64,000 bases of DNA, taken from positions 413,050 to 477,049 of the forward strand of contig KN832882.1 in NCBI GenBank assembly GCA_000827325.1, read 5' to 3'. Position numbers and translations under genes: made by a program. A model generated the notes under the pieces. That model was not told the DNA's origin, made no database searches, and saw only the letters and a program-made list of their open reading frames with translations. This DNA comes from Oidiodendron maius Zn. Taxonomy: Eukaryota > Ascomycota > Leotiomycetes > Myxotrichaceae. Shown here one piece after another: positions 2,838 to 48,608 of the stretch. The stretch's first letter is position 1, and the number at the start of each line of letters is the position of its first letter.

Positions 2838-3977
2838 TTTGAGAATAACGAACCACGTAAAAGTGGTCAAATAGAAAGCTGACTCGCAGCTCGCAATTAT
2901 TTGTGATAATCAAAATTCGTGATTGAAAGCTCCTGAGCATTCCTGTCCTCAAGAATTATTGGAGCACTCCGCCTATAATGAAGTGGCCGTACCGCGGTTT
3001 CCCATCATCATCCCCATAATTCCCCCTCCCCTCTCACATTTGCTCCCATCCCCACAATGCTGGGTTTCATAACTTCACCCGTTCTGGAGACTATCCCGGA
3101 TAGTAGACAACCCAAGGCGGGGCGTTCATGCATCGAGAACGTTGAAGAGAACGTTCAGGAACGGCGGGCTGACTTTGTAGGCCGTCCCAGAGTTCTGAAA
3201 CCAATAAGAGAGCCGGGATGACGGGATCCCGGGAAGGCATGGAAGTCTAGTCCGAACCACAGCGCAATACAGAAGCTGGTTGACGGAAATCAGAACACAG
3301 GAACTGTCTGTGCGCAACGAATCGGGGTCATTCACGTAATCGACTATGCCCTCTATTATTCACACTAAGCGAGGGTCACTTTTTCGATACCCAAGGTGCG
3401 CAAAGACGAAAGCCTGGTGGCGGGACTCGACTCAAAAGGGGCTCGATCCTGCGAGTAGAGGCTCTACTTCCCCGCACGTTGGAAGGCGGAGCGTGCCTGA
3501 AACTACGCCGCCCCTATTTATCTTACGCCCCGTCGGTTCCCGCAAGGAGTAACCCGCTGACCACACGCCCTGTGGAGAAGGTGCCTGCGACCTTCATCCT
3601 TCAGGGTGCCTTCTCAACGTACGATTATGCAGATGCAGATACACTGTCAGGTCCCAGGAACTGTTTGGTCACGTGTTCTTATCGCCCTGCCTGCCATCTT
3701 TCCCTGCTTCTCCTACTGTACTGTATCCTCTTTCTAAGCTGACATGGGAGACACTAGCGATCCCTAACATGGATGCTTGGGGTCGCACGGTCACTTATCA
3801 GTATTTGCGGTCACGTTATGACTCACTAGTCCCATTGCTTTTTCTGGTTTTATATACGTCAGACAGCAGGGCAGTTAGCCACCTCAGTAAAGGATGCGTA
3901 GAGAACTCAGTCGCTCTAGCGTTTCTACTCTGCCCGGAACCCTTTGACTGTTGAAATACTTTACGCCCCGGGTTCCA
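2838..3977. other. Divergent intergenic region (shared promoter)
   Basis: This separates the start codons of the CFEM receptor (-) and the AAA ATPase (+), so it should hold both promoters. It has a pyrimidine-rich stretch around 3000-3060 and a CACGTG core near 3670. Several short open frames overlap here on both strands, but none has a recognisable domain or splice pattern. Confidence 0.5.
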
Positions 3978-5835
3978 ATGGTGGAGTGTCCAATTTGTAC
4001 AAAGCCGGTGAAGTCGGCGCACATTAACCAGCATATCGACTCAGGATGCGAGAATTTCATTGAGGACCACCCCCCTGAATCCGATGAGTTGGGTGGCGCA
4101 TCATCCGTATCATCCGTATCCTCCTTCTTCCATAGACCCACAGCAAATCGAGCGGCTGTCGACGTAGCATCGAAAGTAGAGACAGCCCCCACATTCGCCG
4201 CATCGCGACCGACTCCCAGAAAGGCAGCTGAGGAAAGTGTTGTGCGAAATAAGAGACCGGTGGAATCCACCATCCCGCCGCATGTCTCGGACATCGATGC
4301 GGCCCAGGCTGCAGGCGGAGACACGGCTCTGAAAAGACTGAAGACGAGCAATCCATTTCAGAAAGACCTGCCTCTTTCGGTACGAATGAGACCGCGAACC
4401 CTGGACGACATCTGTGGTCAGGAGCTAGTTGGTCCAACAGGCGTACTTCGGGAACTAATTAAACAAGGCCGGATCCCGTCGATGGTGTTGTGGGGTGACC
4501 CGGGGACCGGTAAAACAACTATTGCGCGGATCATCGCGTCGACGGTCAATTGTCGGTTCATAGAAATCAACAGCACAAATTTTGGCGTTGGAGAATGCAA
4601 AAAGATCTTTTTTGAGGTATGTAACGGCTTGACGCTCGTGTGGAGGGCTTTTCCTGAACAAACACTCACGGTCCCACAGGCACGGAATGAGCAGAGGCTA
4701 AGCGGGAGGAAGACAATCATATTTTGTGATGAGATCCACCGCTTTTCAAAGTCACAACAAGACATATTCTGTACGGCCTTTCGCTAGGACTTTCCTATAT
4801 CTTTCTTTAAGAGCGAATCTGACTGTGCAACTCGAGCAGTGGAGCCTGTTGAGTCTGGACTCATCACATTAATCGGGGCAACCGCCGAGTAGGAGCCCCC
4901 CACTCTCGAACCTTTCTACCCACCCACTTACCCGCCACAGGAACCCGTCTTTCAAGGTCCAGGGTACATTGCTTTCACGATGCCGTACTTTCATCCTTCA
5001 GAAATTGACCGTCAATGATGTTAAAACTATACTTGAGCGAGCGCTCGAGGTCGAGTGTCCTGGCGACACTCGGCCGTCCGTTCTCGACTCTGATATGATA
5101 GCCTATCTCTCCGCCTTTGCAGCTGGCGACGCACGTACTGCGCTGAATATTCTCGACCTCGCTCTCAGCCTCTCGACGCGCACAGGTATTACAAAAGAGG
5201 AAATCAAGAAGTCGATGACGCAAACACTCGTCTACAGCCAGAGTGGGAGCAGTCGTTTCGACATCATGTCTGCGTTTCACAAGTCCATTCGAGGCAGCAA
5301 TACGGACGCTGCTCTGTACTATCTGGCTCGGATGTTCGAGTGTGGCGAGGATCCGTTATGGATTGCCCGTCATCTCATACTGATCGCTTCTGACGACATT
5401 GGAATAGCTGATAACAGTTTACTGCCCCTGGCGACTGCTGCTTATAGTGCCGCGGAGAAGATCGGCATGCCAGAATGTCGAATAAGTCTCGCGCATGCTA
5501 CGGTCGCTTTAGCCAGGGCAAAAAAGAGCATGAGCGTGTTTCTTGGCTTAGCCAGGGCTCTAACAGTTCTAAAAGAACCCGATGTCGCTGCACTGCCCGT
5601 GCCAATAAACCTCAGAAATGTGCCCGGGGAATTGATCGATGTATCAGAACATCAGAGGAACTCGGAGAGTAGCACCAATTATAAACAAGGGAGAGTCGAG
5701 CAAGAGGTATGATGATTTGCCCTTTCCCTGTGATTTACTGGGAGCTTCCCTGTGCTTTGCAACGAAGAAACTAAGTTTGGGGTTCTGTAGTTTCTTCCTG
5801 ATCTGCTTAAAGGAAGGAAGATTTTTGAAGAGTGA
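3978..5835 (+). CDS. MGS1: WRNIP1/Mgs1-type AAA+ ATPase with UBZ4 finger
   Basis: Five exons (3978-4616, 4680-4770, 4840-4888, 4941-5706, 5791-5835) give 529 residues; an upstream in-frame ATG at 3951 would add nine. The N-terminus is a RAD18-type UBZ zinc finger (C-x2-C, then H-x3-H and C, residues 4-24) that binds ubiquitin. The ATPase has Walker A GDPGTGKTT (about 173-181), Walker B IIFCDEIHRF, sensor GATAENPSF and arginine finger LLSRCRTF, followed by the RarA/MgsA C-terminal assembly region. The family helps stalled replication forks in the nucleus. The last exon is tiny but restores the conserved tail (QEFLPDLLKGRK); the segment just before it is divergent. Splice junctions all recover family motifs. 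Confidence 0.9.
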
Positions 5836-6954
5836 AGAAAATTTGACCGGGAGGCCGATCACGAATACTGGATGGGAAAGCTTATATACCCCCCTGAGAA
5901 ATTTGGTCCAGAAATCATGCGTCATTCCTCACTTAAAGAAAGCAGTTCTTCTTCGTCAGCATTAAGCCTTACGATATACCCAGTATATGATTAGGGATTT
6001 AATATTTGTTTGGGGCAGAAGATGCTGGAGAGGAAGGGTTTGGAGGAGGTGGGAATGGGGTTAATAAAGCCTATTTGACTAATATTATATATTAAATACT
6101 GACAGTATTGAGGTCTTAGACATTTATGCCATAAGAGTATATCCTCGAAATCTCTAGATAGCAAGAAGACATATATAAACACCGAAGGGTTTCGTGGTCT
6201 CTGGAATCCATGCTAAAGAGTGGTGTGCAAAATCAGCTTCGCCCAAACACTACTCTTTTCTAATCTCAGCGCCACTCGGTACTGGAAACCCTCGTACGCT
6301 TTCACAAAAGCGAAACAGTAAGATGCCTGCCCCAGCGCTGCAAGCCGTTGAGGTAAATTACTTCCATACTTAGAATGTAAAGTATACAACTGAGACTCCA
6401 TGTACAGATTTACAAAGGATAAATAAAAGGTGCTACGCCATTGAATGGCTGTGTGATGACTCTGTCAACGACAGGGTCACTATATAATAGAGGAAAGGTG
6501 GCGGGCATTTAGTTGGTCCTTATTACTTGCATTGCAGTGCGCGTTTATTTCAATTAATATCCCAAATATTCCATGTTCGTTTATCTTACTGAAAGAGACG
6601 GCACAGCATGTGTAGTGTACTAGGATATATAGGTCCAAGTATATTGCCAACACAGTGCCTTGACCTAGTTATAGACGAATCATCATTGAATTACGCATAA
6701 GATGGAATACCATAAAATCGAACAAGGTAAAAGACCATATGTGGTAGAGCGCTGGATGCATATTGATACCGAGTCTCACAGACCGCGTATTACGATTCCT
6801 TCATGAACCAAAAAAAGAAATCTGGAAGAGCCGGCTCCATTGTAATACCTATTGCCTCCTATGAACCAATGTCAGAACTATAACGCTGCAAGAAAATCCG
6901 GACGCGAACGAAGACAAAAAGGGAACCACACAATGGAGATAGTAGAAATGAATT
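5836..6954. other. Convergent intergenic region
   Basis: This AT-rich 1.1 kb lies between the 3' ends of the AAA ATPase (+) and the beta-lactamase-fold gene (-). Only short frames without domains occur. I see no RNA gene or repeat. Confidence 0.55.
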
Positions 6955-8505
6955 TTAACTGTGGAGTACCAAACTCACCACTTGGCCCGCGGTGCTGACG
7001 AGAGTCCGTGCTCTTAGCGCTGTCCTGTACGGACTATTGTCCGGGTTCACCACAGGCGTTCCAGTTTGGAATCTTGTGACTAGCCAGTTTTCGGCATTAA
7101 TGTGCGTGAAGGTAAACGTTCGAGGTAGAGAGTGGTTTTGCATTGTCCTGCACACCAGATAAGTTGTGCTGTCAAATTGTGTGGTGCAGTCGCCTAATTG
7201 TAGGAGATTGAGAGTGATAGGGCCATAGGCGATGTTGCGGTATGTTCCCAAGTAGTCTTTCAAGGCTAGTGTGAGTGGGATAGTAGGGGTAGGTGGAGCG
7301 TCGGGGTATAGGCGCTGGCGAGCAGTTCTATTTTTTTCGGCATGGTCCCTACTATCGTCTATAAAGAACCGGTCCATCTTTTCCAAAACCTCATGCCTGG
7401 AATCGCCTAAAAGAATATCAATGAGATCTACCGCAAGTCCTTTTAGACTCGTATGAGCAGTTTGGCCGTTTGATAGAAAAGAGACACCTAATTCAAGAGA
7501 TGGGACGAGCATCACGAGAGCCCCATATCCGTCAATCTCACCTGTATGCCAGTGCACTAAGTTTGACTTATATGTAGTGATAAACCAGCCTAGGCCATAG
7601 GCAAGAACGCCCTCAAATGGTATATTTATCGGGTCGTGAGGCGATAGATGGCTCCTTGGCGCCCATAAATTCTTGACGATATCATCATTAAGAGGACCGG
7701 TAGAGGGTTGGAGAAATGCACGCATCCACTTGGCATAGTCGTCGACTGTAGTAACGATAAAGCCTGCGCCTGATCTTTCCGGAGCATCCAGAGCACTCTC
7801 CTTAATTAGCTCGACGTTCTCCCACTCAGGGTCAGATGCAAACTTCGACCATGAATAGCCTTGTGCTATGCTCCCTCCAGCTCCACGCGCGTCTCGCAAC
7901 CCGCCATAGGTATGCTGCATACCTAAGGGGTGCCACAGAGTTTCCTTCATAAAGGCAGACGCAGATTTGCCCGTTACAACCTCGAGAGCGTAAGATGCCG
8001 CGAAAAACATTTGATTGCAGTATTCGTGTTCCTCCCTAAGCGAATTGTGCATTGGGAGGTGCCGGAGATTTCGGGTGATCTGTCGAAGAGTTCCTTTTTT
8101 GGTGGACATTTCATGTCTCGGCAGTCCTGTTCGATGCGAGAGGCAGTCCTCCAGGGTAACTTGCGCCGTACGAGTCGGCTCAGAAAGAACAAAGTCTTGT
8201 GGGATGATCGTAGCCATGGGTGTCCTCCAGCTGATGCGCTCATCTGGAGGTTTGGACTGGTTAGCATCAGAAGCAAGGTAGATGGCCCAGGCCGCACATA
8301 GATGGGCCTTGGTAGTGCTTGCACCAAAGAACAGAGTGGTTGCGTGTTCCACGGGGGCCTTAGACTCAATATCGGCCAGACCGTAACCTTTGGACCAGCT
8401 GGACTCTTTATGGAGAACAGAGAACGCGACACCCGGGACACGCCAGCGCTGTAGAGTATCTGCTACCCTCCTGTCAAAGTCGGCGGTGAAAGGCGTAAAC
8501 GTCAT
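6955..8505 (-). CDS. Beta-lactamase-fold serine hydrolase (class C/transesterase family)
   Basis: This is a single 516-residue frame from the ATG at 8505. The three serine penicillin-recognition motifs are in order: S-T-T-K at 63-66 (nucleophile Ser and general base Lys), Y-C-N at 162-164, and H-T-G at 320-322. LSHRTGLPRH (about 123-132) and GYGLADIE (about 40-47) are also typical of the beta-lactamase/DD-peptidase-like family. There is no signal peptide, so a cytosolic hydrolase or acyltransferase is more likely than an antibiotic-resistance enzyme; fungal members include esterases and natural-product transesterases. A C-terminal beta-rich extension (about 410-516) follows the catalytic domain. 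No intron is needed and no defect is seen. Substrate unknown. Confidence 0.85.
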   Translation of the reverse strand: MTFTPFTADFDRRVADTLQRWRVPGVAFSVLHKESSWSKGYGLADIESKAPVEHATTLFFGASTTKAHLCAAWAIYLASDANQSKPPDERISWRTPMATIIPQDFVLSEPTRTAQVTLEDCLSHRTGLPRHEMSTKKGTLRQITRNLRHLPMHNSLREEHEYCNQMFFAASYALEVVTGKSASAFMKETLWHPLGMQHTYGGLRDARGAGGSIAQGYSWSKFASDPEWENVELIKESALDAPERSGAGFIVTTVDDYAKWMRAFLQPSTGPLNDDIVKNLWAPRSHLSPHDPINIPFEGVLAYGLGWFITTYKSNLVHWHTGEIDGYGALVMLVPSLELGVSFLSNGQTAHTSLKGLAVDLIDILLGDSRHEVLEKMDRFFIDDSRDHAEKNRTARQRLYPDAPPTPTIPLTLALKDYLGTYRNIAYGPITLNLLQLGDCTTQFDSTTYLVCRTMQNHSLPRTFTFTHINAENWLVTRFQTGTPVVNPDNSPYRTALRARTLVSTAGQVVSLVLHS

Positions 8506-9150
8506 GATTTATCCGATGCTTCCAATATATCTATAGTTTAAAGTCTCGCTCGTGCATCGAGACAGCAAGACTAGACATCAGCAGAGACGCAGGAGAGGCT
8601 GACGCTCTCAAAATATGTGCTCTTTGCTTCGGAGCTTCGGACATAACCTAAGCGGGGTAGCGCTTCGAGGGCGTATTCGCTTCAGGAGGGCCCAGCAAGA
8701 TTAACAAAGGTCTAGTGACGACTACAGTAGAAGGCGAGTTAAGTGTCGCCAGCTTTTTAGTTAACCTTTTTTTTTGAATAGACTGCGGGGTCAGCTTGTG
8801 GTTTGTGTGGCTTGGCAGATACATGTACCAAGGAGGTACCAAGGGAAGCAGTTGATATTTTGCGGCCGATAAGAGGTCACGTGGTGATAAGGCATTACGA
8901 GACATTACGACGGCCACTGATAAGCGAGCTGAATTGGCGGCTCAGCCTACTTGTGGTCGAGCTGACCTCTGACGAGCACCACCGACCACACTGCCCCAAA
9001 GTGCCTATCGAGCTCCAGCGTGAAGCCTTCGAAACTTAGGCAAATCGAGAAATAGATACTACTGCTCTGCGATTTCTGGCTCAAACACGATAATACGCTT
9101 GCATTGCGATCCAACATTCTTTGCTCGTGGGAGAGCATGCAGGCACCACG
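8506..9150. other. Divergent spacer containing a transposon-type end
   Basis: Upstream region of both the beta-lactamase-fold gene (-) and the NLR gene (+). It contains the left terminal-repeat copy at 8723-8766 and a CACGTG at about 8879-8884. No further gene is visible. Confidence 0.55.
8723..8766 (+). repeat. Terminal-repeat copy A (left end of NLR segment)
   Basis: It starts TACAGTAGAAGGCGAGTT and continues with a GTGTCGCC-like block and a T-rich stretch containing TTAGTTAAC. The same order occurs at 13398 (-), 46282 (+) and 48536 (-). The first TA fits a Tc1/mariner-type target duplication. Confidence 0.7.
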
Positions 9151-12100
9151 ATGCGTCTCCTGAAGCGCTCACCGGGCGGCGGTTTCGAGTTGGTTTCTTT
9201 CAATAATAGTGACCCTCCTCCGTATGCTATCCTATCGCACACCTGGATCGAGGATCAAGAAGTTACGTATAGTGAGTTGGTGGCCGGCACATGCAAGGAC
9301 AAGGCTGGCTACAGTAAAATCCGCTTCTGCATAGATAGAGCCGCGGAGGATGGCCTACAGTATTCCTGGGTGGATACGTGTTGCATCAATAAGTCTACCA
9401 GTGATGAGCTCAGTGCAGCTATCAATTCTATATTTTGCTGGTATCAGTGTGCAAGCAAGTGCTACGTATACTTATCAGATGTCCGGGTCCCGGATGAGGT
9501 TATTGATGCCCAGGCGTCCCGGGTAACGTGGCAGGATGCCTTTCGACGGAGCCGGTGGTTCACGCGAGGCTGGACGTTGCAAGAGCTTCTAGCGCCGGCT
9601 ACCGTTGAGTTCTTCTCCAAGGAGGGCAAGCGGCTGGGTAGTAGGATATCTTTGGAGAGGGAAATCCATGAGATCACTAAGATTCCCATCGGAGTACTAA
9701 GAGGACAAAGTCTTACCGAGTTTAGCGTTGAGGAGCGAATGAGCTGGGCTGCCAATCGCAGAACGACGTTAAAGGAGGACAAAGTATATTGTTTACTAGG
9801 AATCTTTGGGGTATTCCTATCACTTATATATGGAGAAGGAGAAGCCTACGCGACTCTACGGCTGAAAGAGGAGATATGGAAGCGGCAGGAAGGGTGGGGA
9901 ACAGAACATCTGCAACACTTAACAGGTACGTTCTTGCTCAGGCGAAGTAGCATTCCTGTGTACGAGTCATTACGCAGCTAACGATATGTAGTCCCCTCGC
10001 CGTTACCATTTCCAAGGAACGAAATCTTCATCGGACGAGAAGACCAGCTTCAATCTCTCGAACAATCCCTCCTTCTCCCAAATACTCACCAACGCATGAC
10101 AATATACGGTCTAGGAGGCTGTGGGAAATCAGCACTTGCCCTTGAGTTTGCATATCGCGCGCTAGCTCGAGACGCTAGATGTCTAGTTTTCTGGGTTCCT
10201 GCCATTAGCCAAAAGAGCTTCGAGCTTGCATATCGTGACATCGGAATCCGCCTTCGCGTACCAGGGGTCACTGATGATAATGCGGATTTTAAGCAGCTTG
10301 TTAAGAAGGCATTAAGCTCGGAGAGCACGGGTCACTGGCTGATGATTGTTGACAATGCTGATGACCCTGGAGTCCTTATAGGCGGCACTAGTGGCTATCG
10401 AGGGTCAGCTCGACTGCACGATTATCTTCCATATAGTAATCGAGGCAAGATCCTCTTTACTACACGGAGCAGGAAAGCTGCCGGAGATTTAACTCAGAGC
10501 AGTATCTTAGAGCTTAATGATATGAGCAAAGCTGAGGCTCGGCAGCTACTAGCGCGACGAATATCGAAGCCAGCGTTGCTTGACGACGGAAAGGCTATCG
10601 AAAGACTGCTAGAGTTACTTACGTATTTACCGCTTGCAATTGTACAGGCAGCTGCTTTTATTAAGAATAACGATATATCAGTGTCCGGATATATCTTGTT
10701 GTTCCAAGAAGCGGGTACTGAGGCTGATCTCTTTGGAGAGCATTTCGAGGATCCTAGCAGATACCGAGAAATGGAAAGCACGATTGCCAAAACGTGGCAT
10801 ATCTCGTTCGATCAGATACGAAAGCAAGATCCACTTGCTGCGGAGTACCTTTCATTCATGGCGTGCATCGATCGCATCAACATTCCTCAGTCGCTGTTGC
10901 CTCCCGGGGCCTCCCAGCTGCAACAAGCTAAAGCGATCGGGACGCTGAAAGGATACGCGTTTATCACGGAGCGGCAGAAAGTCCTAATGCAGGGACATGG
11001 AGAGAAGTTCTTCGATATCCATCGCCTTGTCCACATGGCGTCGATATGGTGGCTGAAGGAACATTGTGAGTGGGCGGCTCGGGCGAGCAAAGCGGCTAAT
11101 CGGCTTGAGGAAGTAATCCCATTTGGCGGGCATGAGAATAAAGAAGCGTGGACAACATATCTTCCCCACGCACTTCACGTAGCCGCACATCATGATACAC
11201 TGGATGAGGTAGTAAGAGCATCGCTTCTTGATCAAGTCGGACTATGCCTATCGACCCTAGGGCAATATTCGGCCGCGGAGACTACACAACGACAAGCACT
11301 TTTATTGAGAGAAAATATTTTGGGGAAGGAGCATGATCAGACACTCACGAGCATGAATCGGGTGGGAGTAGCACTTTACCACCAAGGAAAGTACGAGGCG
11401 GCTGAAGCGATTCACCGGCAGACACTGGTGCAGCGAGAGAAGGTGCTTGGGTTAGAGCATCTAGACACGCTGGCGATCATGCACAACTTAGCGACTGTGC
11501 TAGTCAGCCAAGGCAAGTACGAGGAGGCAGAATCGATAAACAGGCAGACACTATCGCAGTTTGAGAAAGTGCTTGGGCTAGAGCATCCAGATACGCTAAC
11601 GTGTATGGGCAGCTTAGCGCTCGTGCTGGCTAGCCAAGGCAGGTACAAGGAGGCAGAATCGATGAACAGGCAGACGCTGGCGCGGCGAGAGAAGGTGCTT
11701 GGGCCAGAGCATCCAGACACGCTCACGAGCATACACAACTTAGCGACTGTGCTAGTCAGCCAAGGCAAGTATGAGGAGGCAGAATCGATGAACAGGCAGA
11801 CGCTGGCGTGGCGAGAGAAGGTGCTTGGGTTAGAGCATCCAGACACGCTCACGAGCATGCACAACTTAGCGACTGTGCTAGTCAGCCAAGGCAAGTACGA
11901 GGAGGCAGAATCGATAAACAGGCAGACACTAGCGCAGTTTGAGAAAGTGCTTGGGCTAGAGCATCCAGATACGCTGATGAGCATGAGCAGCTTAGCGCTC
12001 GTGCTGGACAGCCAAGGCAAGTACAAGGAGGCAGAATCGATGAATAGGCAGACGCTGGCGCGGTTGGAGAAGGTGCTTGGGCTAGAGCATTCAAACACGC

Positions 12101-12813
12101 TCACGAGCATGCATAACTTAGCGACTGTGCTAGTCAGCCAAGGCAAGTACGAGGAGGCAGAATCGATAAACAGGCAGACACTGGCGCGGTCGGAGAAGGT
12201 TCTTGGGCTAGAGCATCCAGATACGCTGATGAGCATGAGCAGCTTAGCGCTCGTACTGGACAGCCAAGGCAAGTACAAGGAGGCAGAATCGATGAACAGG
12301 CAGACGCTGGCGCAGTCGGAGAAGGTGCTTGGGCCAGAGCATCCAGACATACTGTCGAGTATGGGCAACTTAGCGCTTGTGCTAGGCAGGCGAGGCAAGT
12401 ACAAGGAGGCAGAATCGATAAACAGGCAGACACTGGTGCGGTTGGAGAAGGTTCTTGGGCTAGAGCATCCAGATACACTGTTGAGCATGAACAACTTAGC
12501 GCTCGTGCTGGCTAGCCAAGGCAAGTATGAGGAGGCAGAATCGATGAACAGGCAGACGCTGGCGCGGCGAGAGAAGGTGCTTGGGCCAGAGCATCCAGAC
12601 ACGCTGACGAGCGTGTACCGTCTTGCTCGTCTCCTTGCAAAGCTGCATCGCTATGATGAATCTCTTCTCTTGTATGAAAGAGCATGCGTTGCGTACAGCA
12701 CCGTCCTTGGGATGGATCATCCGACCACCCGGGCGTGTTACGAACATTGTTTACAAACGCTTGCATCGCAAGAACAGGATCGGGTTGCCCCTTCCTCCCA
12801 GATAGCGGCGTAA
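9151..12813 (+). CDS. HET / NB-ARC / TPR NOD-like receptor (allorecognition type)
   Basis: Two exons (9151-9925, 9992-12813) encode 1198 residues; the intron has a GCTAACG branch site and GTACGT donor. The ATG at 9151 begins MRLLKRS, the usual HET start; a TTG-initiated extension to 9121 is not credible for a fungus. Residues about 20-240 are a HET domain of the HET-E/HET-D type (YAILSHTW, WVDTCCINKS, RGWTLQELLAP, RMSWAANR, YCLLGIFGV). FIGRE leads into NB-ARC with P-loop GLGGCGKSA (298-306), Walker B LMIVDNADD, sensor KILFTTRS and the GLPL-like YLPLAI. Twelve 42-residue kinesin-light-chain-like TPRs fill 671-1174. Such proteins sense non-self through the repeats and trigger cell death through the HET domain. 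The gene appears intact. Confidence 0.92.
11227..12738 (+). repeat. Twelve exact-length 126-bp TPR-coding units
   Basis: Units start at 11227, 11353, 11479 and so on every 126 bp to 12613, with no indels. Units 3-11 (11479-12612) are nearly identical in DNA and protein. Two subtypes occur (NLATVLVSQGKYEEAES and SLALVLDSQGKYKEAES), and the pair 6-7 (11857-12108) is repeated as pair 8-9 (12109-12360), which points to 252-bp duplication. Differences cluster at a few codons, for example the residues after NRQTLA (QF, RR, WR, RL, RS, QS). Confidence 0.92.
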
Positions 12814-13713
12814 GCATGGACACAGGCAAGCGATCGAAGTTGTTACATGGACTGGCAAAGATTTGTATCCGAGGCTCGAAATTGTCTATAAAATAACAGA
12901 ACTTTATGTTTGTATAGTACGCTACATGAATGATGCAGTTATGACTTGCAATAGACTACGTATGCTCACCAGCAGATGTCACAAGAATAAGCGCGCGTAT
13001 GGTAATGCTACCAGGCGGCCCGGACACATGTGTTCGAATTGGAGCGAGTTATACTCGAGACCAGCCTCAGACTTGCGACCCGACCGAGTCCCGTTAGCAA
13101 TTTGAAATTCAGATGCTAGCATCACTAAACTACAGCTATCCCAGGTCAGGAGGTGAAGCTCTCCCTGAAGTGTAATAAGCTTAAATATCCGAATAATTCG
13201 CTCAGTATATAATCCTTCCATATCTCTCTACAGCTCGACAAGTTTTTGGACAGGATGCATGAACTTTCCAGTGGATCCGACGGTATCCGGAGCGACCCAT
13301 CTTGTATGCCTGGGGTGAATCGAAGTATTACAGGCTAACCAGTTGTTATCTATGGAAGACATAATTAAGTAGCGACACTCAATTCGCCTTCTACTGTATA
13401 GGTGACCTAGGCCACAAAATTAGCGAATACGACTCCATAGCAGCGAGTGACTAGTAAGCAAGATAAGCATCGAATCATTCTTTGCCATAATTCATGACCG
13501 CTACCCGCGTCTCGATCCATGCCGTTTGATTGGCTGCTAGAAAACCTAATCTTAAAAACAATACTAGGCGAACCCCTATTTTTCCCCCCCAATCCGAATA
13601 TAACGTATGAGCTAGATAGAAGGACAGACCTGAAATCTGGGCATGGTAACCTTTGTAATAGCTGATGCGTAGTCGCATTGCAGTTCTAAGGAATTGGCTT
13701 CTCGGTATATAAG
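12814..13713. other. Spacer between NLR and acyltransferase genes
   Basis: It holds the inverted terminal-repeat copy ending at 13398 and, beyond it, the acyltransferase promoter. A TATATAAG lies at 13704-13711, only 2 bp before the acyltransferase ATG. No further gene was recognised. Confidence 0.55.
13355..13398 (-). repeat. Terminal-repeat copy B (right end of NLR segment)
   Basis: Read on the minus strand from 13398 it begins TACAGTAGAAGGCGAATT, then GA-GTGTCGCTA, and a short way on ATAGATAAC, matching the copy at 46282. It is inverted relative to copy A at 8723. Confidence 0.7.
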
Positions 13714-15270
13714 ATGGCAGCATTCTGGCGCATCCTCGGAACATCACCTGCTAGAAGGCCGCCACTAGTTGAGAACGATACCATTTACCCTGTTCACATG
13801 CTAGACGATACTAAGACCCTCCGAGACATCGTTGTTACCTGGACGCTGTGCTTTAACGACGTTCTAGATGCGGAAAAGTTGTGCGCTTCGCTTTCGAGAC
13901 TGCTAGAGATTGGAGACTGGAGGAAGGTTGGCGGTCGGCTGAGGCTTAAGGTGAACTTCTTATTTGCCCCGTCGTGAGTGGTCAATGTATTGGTGTTAAC
14001 TCGTGATTACTAGGAAGATGGAGAATTGGAGATCCATGTCCCCTCTCAGTTCACGGCAGAACGCCCTGCCCTGACTTTCACCCACAATCTTCTTGCCATC
14101 GATATCGAAGATCATCCGCTTGGAAAGACTTTGCCTAGAGCCACTAATGGCCCCTCAATCCAGGCCGGCCCTCATAACTTTCGATCCTTTGCAGCTCGAG
14201 AAGATGCACCGGAAACTCTTGAGGATTTCATTTATCATGACATTCCCCAGCTGTCACTCCACATTACCTCGTTCAACAACGCAACGCTCGTAGCGCTCTC
14301 ATGGCCGCACACGCTGATGGATGTCATGGGTCAGCAAGCTCTCCTCCATGGCTGGTGTCTTGTGTTAGCTGGCCGTGAGTCTGAAGTTCCGCCAATGCTT
14401 GGTGCGCGACAGGACGCCATATGTGCCGCCGCAGATATGCCCGTTGAGAAAGAGGAAGCGTTCATATTAGGACAAAAACGGCTTCGGGGATGGGCCATGA
14501 TCAAATTTGGACTGCGATTTGCTTGGGATTTGATGTGGAACCGAACTGTCGAGACAAACACCATATTCCTGCCCAGAAGTGTAGTTATGGAGCTGCAAAC
14601 CCAGGCGCAGCGCGACATTTCCACCCAGGACGGCGGCGAGGAGAAGCCGTTCATTAGCGAGGGCGATGTACTGACGGCTTGGGTGGTGCGACTAGTGGCT
14701 TCCTCCCTGCCCCAGCCACGGCCGATGACAGTGCTTCATGCACTTAATGCCCGGTTCAGGCTGTCTACACTCCTTCAAGCTTCAGGCGTTTACGTACAGA
14801 ACATGGCAGTGGCGGCCTTTACACTCCTGCCTTCTGAGGCCGTGACGGGGCCTCTGGGACGTATAGCGCTAGAAAATCGTCGCCAGCTGATGGAGCAGTC
14901 GACGGAGGCTCAAGTTCTGGCGGTCCTCCGTGAACTGCGACAAGAATCGAAGGCGGGTAGCGATCCGGCATTTGTGTGCGGCGAACCAGATGCTCTGCTG
15001 ATGCCCGTCACGAATTGGACCCGGGCAGGCTTCTTTAAGATATTAGACTTTAGCCCGGCGCTTCTCCGTGCGGGCGATACAAGCCAGTCGAGGCGTAACC
15101 TGCCTGGCACCATGATATTCCACCACGCACAGTCGATGCGACAAGGCCCGGCCGTTAGGAATGTAATCGTGGTGCTCGGCAAGGATCACAGCGACGACTA
15201 TTGGTTGACCGGGATTTTGCTCCCTCAAGCGTGGGCTAAGATTCGGGATGAAATTGAAATGATGCAGTAG
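13714..15270 (+). CDS. HxxxD (BAHD-like) acyltransferase
   Basis: Two exons (13714-13950, 14014-15270) give 497 residues; the intron ends in GATTACTAG. The acyl-transfer motif HTLMD lies at 178-182 (His is the general base). The N-terminal signature DTIYPVHMLDD and LEIGDWRKVGGRL, and the late NWTRAGFFKILDFSPA, are those of fungal transferase-family proteins (Pfam Transferase) that move acyl groups from CoA to alcohols or amines, as in the trichothecene 3-O-acetyltransferase group. The DFGWG motif of plant BAHDs is replaced by DFSPA. A TATA-like element sits almost on the ATG, but the residues from MAAFW onward fit the family start, so I keep it. The acceptor substrate is unknown; no biosynthetic core gene is adjacent. 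Confidence 0.85.
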
Positions 15271-45728: not shown

Positions 45729-46983
45729 GGTGTTTGGGGAAAGAACCTTATCAACAGGGACTATGAATTACCAAGGCTCAAAGCTGGCCACACTGGGTTG
45801 TTGAAAGCATTCCTCCATGAACCTTATATATTAATCGGTGATGCGACGCTTATAAATTCAACGTGTTTCCTTCTTCAAATCATGGCTGTCATCCCGCGTC
45901 TAGGGGTACAGTCAGTGTAAGCGAGGTTAGAAGCAAGGAAACTCACAGCGAGCGGCGGTGGATCTACGGGTTGGAAAATGGAGGGGCCACGGGGCCTGTA
46001 AGATGCTGACTCATGTGGTCAGACAAGATTGGTTGCGTGAGTTGGGCAGCCAAAAGCGGTGGGCTAAGTATGACTACACTCATTGGCGGATATGCCATAG
46101 CCCTCGTTTTCCCTACTGTGCAATACACTCATTTTTCAGCTCTTAAAATTCATTCCGTAAGGTTAGGTGGCCTAAACCGGTCGGTCTTGAATACCAAATA
46201 TCTAGTAGTTCTCGAGATACGAAAAGTTTCACCTTTCAATTCCACGTTACAGCTATTAGGTTTTTAATACAGGCGTTATAGTACAGTAGAAGGCGAATTG
46301 TGTGTCGCTAATTTTATAGATAACTTTTTTAAGCAGGCTCCACTTCATGACACCTGTAGCTGTACACCCTTGCCTGGTTGTACAGTACCCCAAGGTACGG
46401 CCGCTAAAAATGAATTGTAAGCAGACCACCTTATCGGTCGGTAACTGCATAGCCCAACATACAATATACTACTGAATCCACATCTTCCCCTCATGTTTCC
46501 ACAGTTCTATAGTATCCCTTTTGGCATTGATCCAGTGGAAGCACCGCGAGCACGTATCTGGCACGTGGAGAAACCGGCACCCTATAACCTGACAGTAGAG
46601 GTCTAACCCTAAGAAAGGATGCCGGACTCTCATCTATATACTATACAACACAGCTACTCTCTTCTATAAGAGCTATAAGGGAAGCCGCCAATATACCACA
46701 ACAGGCAGTGGAACCGGTACGAAATCCAGGCTCATAACCTATTAACAATAATAACTTGATTTGACACTACAGTGGGAGAAGCCTGCTAAATACACTGACC
46801 AGCACACATTGTACAGTGTGGCTGCGTACATTGAGTCCCTGACATTCTAACAAAAACACCGTGGTGCAACTCAGCACTGAAGGGATGAATAGATATTATA
46901 TTTGGATAATAGCTTTACATCTCCTTGACCAAATTCTCCTCTCAGCTGATACGAACGCAGTCTGCGATATTTGTACACGGCAC
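45729..46983. other. Intergenic region with left transposon end
   Basis: Upstream flank of the reductase gene, then the terminal repeat at 46282-46406. Beyond it to 46983 only short frames occur; a hairpin-like CACACATTGTACAGTGTG lies near 46804. Confidence 0.5.
46282..46406 (+). repeat. Terminal-repeat copy C (left end of secreted-protein segment)
   Basis: Begins TACAGTAGAAGGCGAATTG, followed by a GTGTCGCTAATTTTATAG-type block, a TTTTTTAAGC stretch, and about 60 bp later GGTTGTACAGTACCCCAAGG. The same landmarks, inverted, lie at 48536-48420. Confidence 0.75.
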
Positions 46984-47422
46984 TTATTTCCGGTCAGGAA
47001 ATGGGACACAGCACGTAAATCCGTTCGGTCCAGGACAATGGCCCCTATGTCCTCGTCAGCATCAATAATACAGAAAGATCAGGCAAGTAAGCTCTTACGA
47101 ATACGAGGTTCCCCCTGCACAGGAAGTCTTGCATTGACCAGCTGAACCATCGGCGGAACAGGGAATATTCTCACAGCATCGGATGCTGTTACCATTGTTA
47201 GGACAGAAGCCTGGTATCCAGTCACCATGGTAGCTACTGCAGTCAGACTGAGTGACGCAGATTCCAGTGCTAGTCTAAAAAAGGTTGTGTTAACGTGTGA
47301 GTCTGCGAGGTTGCATGTACATTGTAGAAAAGGTGGGAGCTTACCCATGGTTCCGAACAGTATTGACTGCTAGATAGCCCGAGTTGGCCAAGCAAAAGAA
47401 TAACAGTAGCCTGGATCTTCAT
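46984..47422 (-). CDS. Small secreted 12-cysteine protein, lysozyme-associated-module-like
   Basis: Three exons (47422-47345, 47274-47099, 47044-46984) give 104 residues. MKIQATVILLLGQLGLSSSQ is a signal peptide. The mature chain has 12 cysteines in the order C, C, C, C, CC, C, C, C, C, CC, with GICVTQSDCSS, GFCPNNGNSIRCC and a closing GHCPGPNGFTCCV. This CPxx...CC pattern resembles the cysteine-rich module attached to some fungal lysozyme-type hydrolases, but here no catalytic domain follows. The third exon is needed to complete the last CC motif and was found by frame. It is the only gene between the inverted repeats of the 46282-48536 segment. Role unknown; an extracellular, disulfide-stabilised protein is likely. 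Confidence 0.75.
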
Positions 47423-48608
47423 GTTGATTGAGCAGACTGCTCTCAATTGATATCTTCTGCTGAAAGGTTGTTATGACACTTGTTCAATGACTGAGTAACA
47501 GAGCGTTGAGTAAGAAAGAGGTACAAAGCCGAATTCGTAAAAGCCAAGGACTATATGACCTTATTTATAAGCCTTTATCATGTCTGGTAATCTGTCAATT
47601 ATTTCTCGTCTGGTATATTCACATAGACATACGGCGCTATGCCGGCGTGCCACACGTATGTTAATAGGTCAAACCTGGGTGGCCGCATCACCAGGGACGC
47701 ATGAGATGAATGTGTCGTTGTGTAAACCAGTTTTCTCTGCCGACGCTCTGCATATGAGTGAATAGATCTGCATCTAGATTTCCTGTCAACTGAGACTGAT
47801 TGCGGGGTAATAAGTGCCCGAATCCGCCAACCGTTACTTTAGCTAGTTGATCTGCAGCTCTGCGGGGTCGCCATTTTACCACGCACACCCCAAAAATAGA
47901 ACAGTAGAAGGTTAGTAGCAGACACCGCAATGCTATATTTGTCTTTGTTCATGCTGGTAGCGTATGAAAAGGGCCGACTTATGCCCGAAAAGCGTCCACC
48001 AGATAGTTGCTAATGGGCGTCTTATCAATTGTAAAGGGCCGCGCAATTCGTTAGGAAGCTTTGCATACTCTTTAGCTAGTTTCAGGAGTGCGTAGCCATG
48101 AATCTTCTGTAATATAGCTGTAAAAAGAGGGATATTAATACTGTGTTTTAGCCGAATCTGCTGCTAAGCAAGCTCTAATAAAATAGGCAATCTATGATAA
48201 CAACGTATAGCGTTACTTGTCTCCTGGTCGGATTCTTTGGACGGCGCGTACGCCACAAGGCCTGCTGAGGTTATTAGCCTGGTTTCAAATCATCTCTTTA
48301 GTAATATCATGATCAAGAGATGTTGTGGAGCATCTAGTTGCGGCGCGCCATGATTGTGTTTGATGAGAGCCCGCTGATTCCCGCCGGGTAGGAGGAGCAA
48401 GAACTGATGACCAGAGGGTGGGTCGTACCTTGGGGTACAACCAGTTGACGGTGCACGGCCACAAGCCTCACAAAACGGCTGCCGCTTAAAACATTTAACT
48501 AAAAATTTAGCGAATCCCAATTCGCCTTTTACTGTAGAAGATATACTTGATCAAAGGTAGGTACTTTAGTGTTACGCTTCCCCGATTCGGCAATAGCCTA
48601 GGAGCTAA
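47423..48608. other. Interior and right end of TIR-bounded segment
   Basis: No gene is supported here. The stretch includes a weak terminal-repeat-like CAGTAGAAGG at 47902 and the right terminal repeat at 48420-48536. A minus-strand frame inside the repeat (FCEACGRAPSTGCTPRY) is partly shared with copy C but has no start or context. Confidence 0.5.
48420..48536 (-). repeat. Terminal-repeat copy D (right end of secreted-protein segment)
   Basis: Read from 48536 on the minus strand: TACAGTAAAAGGCGAATTG, ATTCGCTAAATTTTTAG, TTAAATGTTTTAAGCGGC, then CTTGTGGCCGTGCACC and GGTTGTACCCCAAGG. It is inverted relative to copy C; the CTTGTGG landmark is also present inside copy A at about 8797. Confidence 0.75.

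Follow-up and report, generated by a model that had tools for sequence, protein, structure and literature searches.

The closest described systems to the element considered here are the Pack-Mariners of rice, which are non-autonomous elements with terminal inverted repeats (TIRs) at a TA target site that hold host coding DNA and combine conserved ends with unlike interiors (PMC8903248), and ToxTA, earlier called ToxhAT, a non-autonomous element of Tc1/Mariner type in Bipolaris sorokiniana that is 14 kb long, has a TA site and carries ToxA (PMC12506042). For Pack-TYPE elements a model exists in which two neighbouring insertions are mobilised via their outer ends (PMC8903248). In animals, sequence captured between the TIRs of cut-and-paste transposons is known as Pack-TIRs, and most single-copy cases were ascribed to gap filling without transposition (PMC8277862). 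In Pezizomycotina, the mobile elements called Starships carry HET, NACHT or other NOD-like receptor (NLR) genes (PMC9594970, PMC12134995, PMC12506042). The element in question lies at positions 8723-13398 of a 64-kb stretch of Oidiodendron maius Zn DNA (the window), which is part of contig C13 in the 45.9-Mb genome. It is probably a non-autonomous Tc1/mariner-type element with an NLR gene as cargo, and one of a family in which cargo of this kind arose repeatedly.

By analogy, 8723-13398 would work much like the plant Pack-Mariners or the fungal ToxTA. The Pack-Mariner examples compared contain gene fragments whose source can be identified (PMC8903248), whereas here whole genes are enclosed, with no source found in the genome, mostly of one functional class and in a fungus. 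Because no source gene was found, we do not class the element as Pack-TYPE, although it behaves like one. With ToxTA it shares the fungal host, the Tc1/mariner type, the TA site, a host gene as cargo and a transposase suspected to act in trans; ToxTA differs in that its movement was observed, its cargo is an effector gene, its TIR is 74 bp long and the element itself is carried within a Starship (PMC12506042), whereas the present case is a family with many cargoes that is known from sequence alone. Starships are large (170-294 kb, from two sizes) and typically have a DUF3435 recombinase (PMC9594970, PMC12134995, PMC12506042), whereas the family described here consists of elements of about 0.4-8.7 kb with two TIRs and TA, and 8723-13398 measures 4676 bp from TA to TA (no strand assigned) and has one gene. 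DUF3435, the mark of a Starship captain, was absent from the two open reading frames (ORFs) scanned in it. Among the open-licence papers listed by searches for TIR elements with HET or NLR cargo or for gene capture in fungi, no such family appeared.

The left TIR (8723..8749, plus strand) starts with the target TA at 8723-8724 and the right TIR (13372..13398, minus strand) ends with the target TA at 13397-13398. The arms are 27 nt long, 25 of the 27 pairs are complementary (93%) and 4622 nt lie between them; the borders read gacgac-TA-CAGTAG on the left and CTACTG-TA-tagg on the right. An earlier reading of the letters alone (the sequence-only reading) had proposed inverted ends abutting TA at 8723 and 13398, which these data confirm. 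It had also described an end of 45 bp; the inverted repeat stands, but the similarity between its two arms extends over 27 bp and not 45 bp. Compared with a family end profile built from 40 ends, the left arm matches positions 1-55 (50.9 bits) and the right arm positions 1-38 (41.1 bits). Since this profile finds four sites only in the window (E up to 5), namely the 8723/13398 pair and a second pair at 46282/48536, the two ends are not parts of separate short elements, an arrangement that the sequence-only reading had named as evidence to the contrary.

The repeats are not a product of chance, because a 25-base pattern of the end, when as many as 3 mismatches were allowed, gave 65 matches in the genome and none for the reversed control. 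With a 27-base pattern there were 75 matches, again with none for the reversed control, so the ends are not unique to this locus but form a family. Merging the two match lists gave 77 end sites. Adjacent sites up to 10 kb apart form 17 convergent, 3 divergent and 5 tandem pairs, and two of the three divergent pairs fall between neighbouring elements. Among 43 aligned ends, which were selected by patterns starting at CAGT, the T and A hold 1.52 and 1.57 bits, the next 25 columns mostly 1.5-2.0 bits and the ten columns just outside TA at most 0.2 bits, so that conservation drops abruptly at TA; TA precedes the repeat in 39 of the 43. This information profile, together with the TA borders, is characteristic of transposon ends that sit at TA. 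A CAGT start of the TIRs is a Tc1/mariner feature. The end pattern had no exact match in viral contigs, and the letters of the end appeared in open-licence literature only as single short strings in papers with unrelated titles.

Traces of a transposase are present in other copies. The Tc1/mariner domain DDE_3 has 60 matches in the genome, one of which lies inside a family element, L033 (E 4.3e-5, 28.2 bits; L-numbers denote stretches of the genome, with coordinates local to each, and C-numbers denote contigs). The broken frames of this region were searched piecewise, and one piece of 108 amino acids gave 18 genome matches, six of them within four family elements. In these the first match lies 328 (L033), 397 (L044), 363 (L049) and 355 bp (L048) inward of the end and in the orientation of the end, and the fragments are decayed. 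L044 holds both a transposase fragment and a HET-ankyrin gene in one element. Local comparison found weaker relics in L034, in L039 and in the second window element (46282..48536, no strand assigned, 2255 bp), which has no ORF of 150 amino acids; there the probable relic lies at 48266..48346 on the minus strand, 190 bp inward of the right end (27-amino-acid match, E 0.001). The DDE_3 match and the relics behind the ends point to a Tc1/mariner-type element as the most likely origin of the family, in line with the TA-flanked, CAGT-starting, non-autonomous type that the sequence-only reading had suggested. No intact transposase was seen behind the family ends in the elements examined.

Other transposase sequences of the genome were considered as well. 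A distantly related fragment (34% identity) at C29:104481-104753 shares part of its span with a DDE_3 match of 102 bits at C29:104118-104528, and both fall in one open frame of 353 amino acids. A relative on C9 (60%) has TACAGTACTGC about 370 bp upstream, which may be its own, different end. Another TACAGT-ended family (TACAGTCGGTTCCAGGTGT) has two-ended copies of 1.3-3.4 kb at C1:776141-779549, C10:1185279-1186589 and C14:40491-41800, with a DDE_3 match inside all three and DDE_1 in one as well. The short pattern used for this family discriminates poorly, as it has 15 matches while the control has 12, and the pairs come solely from the six matches with at most one mismatch. By eye comparison of coordinates, none of its copies holds any of the 150 scored HET genes. 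A pogo/Fot-type DDE_1 gene on C31, 1.6-2.3 kb inward of two ends, was considered as an autonomous copy and rejected as no end was found in 1 kb downstream; none of the remaining DDE_1 matches (130 in total) lies within 5 kb inward of a family end.

The cargo of 8723-13398 is an NLR gene on the plus strand. Exon 1 (9151..9925) encodes a HET domain (PF06985, E 1.5e-9) and exon 2 (9992..12813) encodes NB-ARC (PF00931) and TPR (TPR_12, E 1.1e-157), with the TPR array, made of 42-amino-acid units, at 11311..12813 (start approximate). A predicted intron of 66 bases with canonical borders (9926..9991, plus strand, GTACGT...GCTAACG...TAG) would join the HET and NB-ARC frames, and splicing over it gives 1198 amino acids without an internal stop. 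Provided that it is spliced, HET, a NOD-type ATPase and a repeat domain stand in a single protein. NB-ARC scored 23.0 bits in the ORF from the first ATG (10096), under the cut-off of 23.5, and 30.7 bits in the genome search. Seven central TPR units have a pairwise identity of 69-95% (mean 78%), and such alike units presumably place the gene with NLRs of high internal repeat conservation. The closest matches to the NB-ARC part were 95% and 90% identical, and others, Lepidopterella, Paraphaeosphaeria and Xylogone among them, reached at most 77% (best 120 of 2163). Four ORFs of at least 100 amino acids (ATG starts) lie within the element: two correspond to the NLR exons, and these were the ones run through Pfam, while the other two lie antisense to the TPR array. 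The sole match to the family transposase pieces is marginal (21 amino acids at 8751-8813, E 0.007, adjoining the left end), which agrees with the earlier claim that a transposase is lacking; the HET/NB-ARC/TPR gene is the only gene inside, as that reading had also stated. The left neighbour of the element, a beta-lactamase-family gene (6955-8505), has a closest match of 95% and a match of 75% in Xylogone sp. PMI_703, and to the right of the element there is an ORF at 14317-15270.

Comparable cargo was found in other members. From 20 stretches fetched from the genome, the survey took 13 two-ended elements larger than 2 kb, including both window elements, with Pfam run on 20 chosen ORFs and the window ORFs, and 10 of the 13 have a HET or NLR-like gene. 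Besides HET-NB-ARC-TPR in 8723-13398, these are HET-ankyrin (L036, L044), HET (L034/35, L037, L039, L040), HET with SH3 (L038), HET-WD40 (L041), and patatin, NB-ARC and TPR frames (L043). L042 gave no Pfam match in two ORFs scanned. In L045, a HET gene on the minus strand (5764-6615) stands between two complete short copies, of 387 bp (3924-4310) and 376 bp (6879-7254). Inward of single ends, HET (L046, L031, L035), NB-ARC (L050), PNP_UDP_1 (L048), MFS (L049), retroelement domains (L051) and a transcription-factor domain (L052) were found. For L047 a single ORF was run, and it gave no match. Ten ORFs outward of the L048-L051 ends gave no HET and no NB-ARC, and one HeLo domain. The HeLo-domain gene (L051, 292-1152) lies outward of a single end that has retroelement domains on its inner side; the HeLo domain is linked to fungal cell death.

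Some ends are arranged in doublets. Same-orientation doublets with 237-268 bp spacing occur at C1:545343/545610, C13:353901/354137, C30:124534/124776 and C31:69723/69965, and those on C30 and C31 may be mutual copies. L033 has two candidate right ends with 268 bp between them, and L039 may be two overlapping elements, with a truncated inner end at 3095-3120 (14 bits). In L034, two direct copies of one left end with the same flank stand 2159 bp apart, at 1021 and 3179 (C1:989020 and C1:991178). The stretch that separates them includes WD40 coding sequence (1812-2660), and a NACHT match is located 2.6 kb outward of the first copy. The first copy adjoins a run of 20 N, and an assembly artefact is possible.

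The ends and the cargo have separate histories, because the 27-base arms have a mean identity of 0.88 between 13 elements and seven HET domains from the elements are 20-51% identical. What elements share beyond the ends is mainly terminal stretches of about 110 bases (240 at most), transposase relics, ankyrin/HET or WD40 stretches and some short interior pieces, such as 126 bases in the second window element and L039.

The link between the ends and HET or NLR genes was examined with genome-wide tests that rest on part of the genes (the best 150 of 481 HET candidates and 89 of 145 NACHT candidates were scored), and the proximity tests used a set of 282 merged HET, NB-ARC and NACHT genes. The 17 convergent pairs span 74.3 kb and six of them hold a scored gene of these classes, against 0.46 genes that the average density of the genome would predict. 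Of the genes up to 5 kb from an end, 15 lie inward and five outward (P 0.021). As a control for transposon-rich regions, DDE_1 sites were used; 19 of 130 had a HET or NLR gene within 5 kb, compared with 25 of 77 ends, where both ends of an element were counted (P 0.0045). Once set against such controls, the bare count of HET genes near ends is weaker evidence than at first. When location is allowed for, the link is real but moderate.

The following sequence of events would account for these data. A transposase supplied in trans would have recognised both outer ends, at least formerly, and the segment would have inserted at TA; the cargo is one complete HET-NB-ARC-TPR receptor gene plus its own flanking sequence, which we infer to have moved as one unit. 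Across the family, ends that hardly vary over about 27 bp and keep a weaker similarity out to about 110 bp enclose differing genes, mostly HET or NLR genes in the two-ended elements read. Capture probably followed one of two routes. Firstly, a gene could come to lie between two short copies that landed next to it and whose outer ends were then used jointly; L045 fits the two-insertion model for Pack-TYPE elements (PMC8903248) and is a possible capture intermediate for this route. Secondly, a copy that had gained a gene could lose its transposase, a route that L044 and, more weakly, L034 fit. Capture and movement of the NLR in 8723-13398 are likely.

A number of results weigh against this reading. 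The earlier claim of a captured, mobile NLR gains from the element type and the family-wide pattern, but neither a source gene nor a second copy of the NLR cargo was found in this genome, and the best other genomic match covers part of the HET exon (75% over 662 of 2551 query bases). Cargo is not limited to HET and NLR genes, as L033 has a DUF7730 gene (1347-2339), L016 a 2EXR gene (273-1178, in an element of 1525 bp) and L017 a small ORF that looks secreted by eye (1499-2880, in an element of about 1.4 kb whose right end is weak, at 10 bits, and without part of the terminal repeat). NB-ARC in L043 scored 23.2 bits, 0.3 under the cut-off of 23.5. Regions around the ends are HET-rich anyway. 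The inward to outward ratio for all three classes is 17:11 at 8 kb (P 0.17) and 19:12 at 10 kb (P 0.14), and for HET alone it is 8:3, 12:4, 13:7 and 14:7 at 2.5, 5, 8 and 10 kb (P 0.11, 0.038, 0.13 and 0.095). Two HET profiles gave nine HET genes in 70.4 kb inside pairs versus four in 116 kb fetched outside (P 0.022, or 0.010 without one outside gene that follows another end; lengths were computed and the counts of 9, 4 and 3 taken by hand), but the two profiles were themselves derived from nine enclosed genes and so favour the inside. Lastly, 12 of the 18 matches to the transposase piece are not near a family end, and the broken transposase pieces, when run through Pfam by themselves, matched no transposase family.

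Several further points count towards the strongest alternative, namely that real transposon ends inserted separately on both sides of a resident NLR gene which itself never moved, in HET-rich, dispensable regions that collect both. The short copies that flank the HET gene in L045 indicate that such bracketing occurs, and in L038 and L040 HET genes also lie just outside the ends. Only 34 of the 77 end sites make up the 17 convergent pairs, and 43 have no convergent partner within 10 kb. The two arms of an element do not resemble each other significantly more than shuffled arms do (0.895 vs 0.881 over 27 bp, P 0.09; P 0.19 over 45 bp). However, an excess of 17 convergent over 3 divergent pairs is not expected from independent insertions, the ends of 8723-13398 have no nearer partner, and the DDE_1 sites are poorer in HET and NLR neighbours. 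We therefore consider separate insertions unlikely, though an explanation to be reckoned with. Much less probable is a single ancestral element that already held a HET or NLR gene, which diversified along with it and made repeated capture unnecessary: most cargo is of one class and the HET domains of the HET-ankyrin genes in L036 and L044 are 51% identical, yet other HET pairs are 20-43% identical while the ends are near 88%, the architectures are diverse (HET-NB-ARC-TPR, HET-WD40, HET-ankyrin, patatin/NB-ARC/TPR and HET alone) and some cargo is unrelated. A last alternative, in which the repeats serve HET and NLR genes for regulation or recombination and are not transposon ends, would agree with their association with such genes, but is scarcely credible given the TA at the outer border, the abrupt conservation border, the two-ended copies of 387 and 376 bp, which are too small for such genes, and the transposase relics at near-constant distance from the ends.

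Capture by a non-autonomous Tc1/mariner-type element thus remains the reading that we prefer for 8723-13398, and it suggests that a small DNA transposon carried recognition-type genes around the genome. A broader scenario is put forward tentatively: a Tc1/mariner family may have repeatedly captured, and may still spread, whole NLR and HET genes, with selection keeping the NLR intact while the transposase decays, and may in this way seed incompatibility loci. Fungal NLR and HET repertoires are large and have a fast turnover. Starships carry NLR and HET genes among many others, and a family of 3-9 kb elements, every one with a single receptor-type gene, would offer a finer route to new loci than Starships. 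If this scenario, which is possible though doubtful, were true, the family would be a small-transposon shuttle for whole NLR and HET allorecognition genes and a source of new incompatibility loci.

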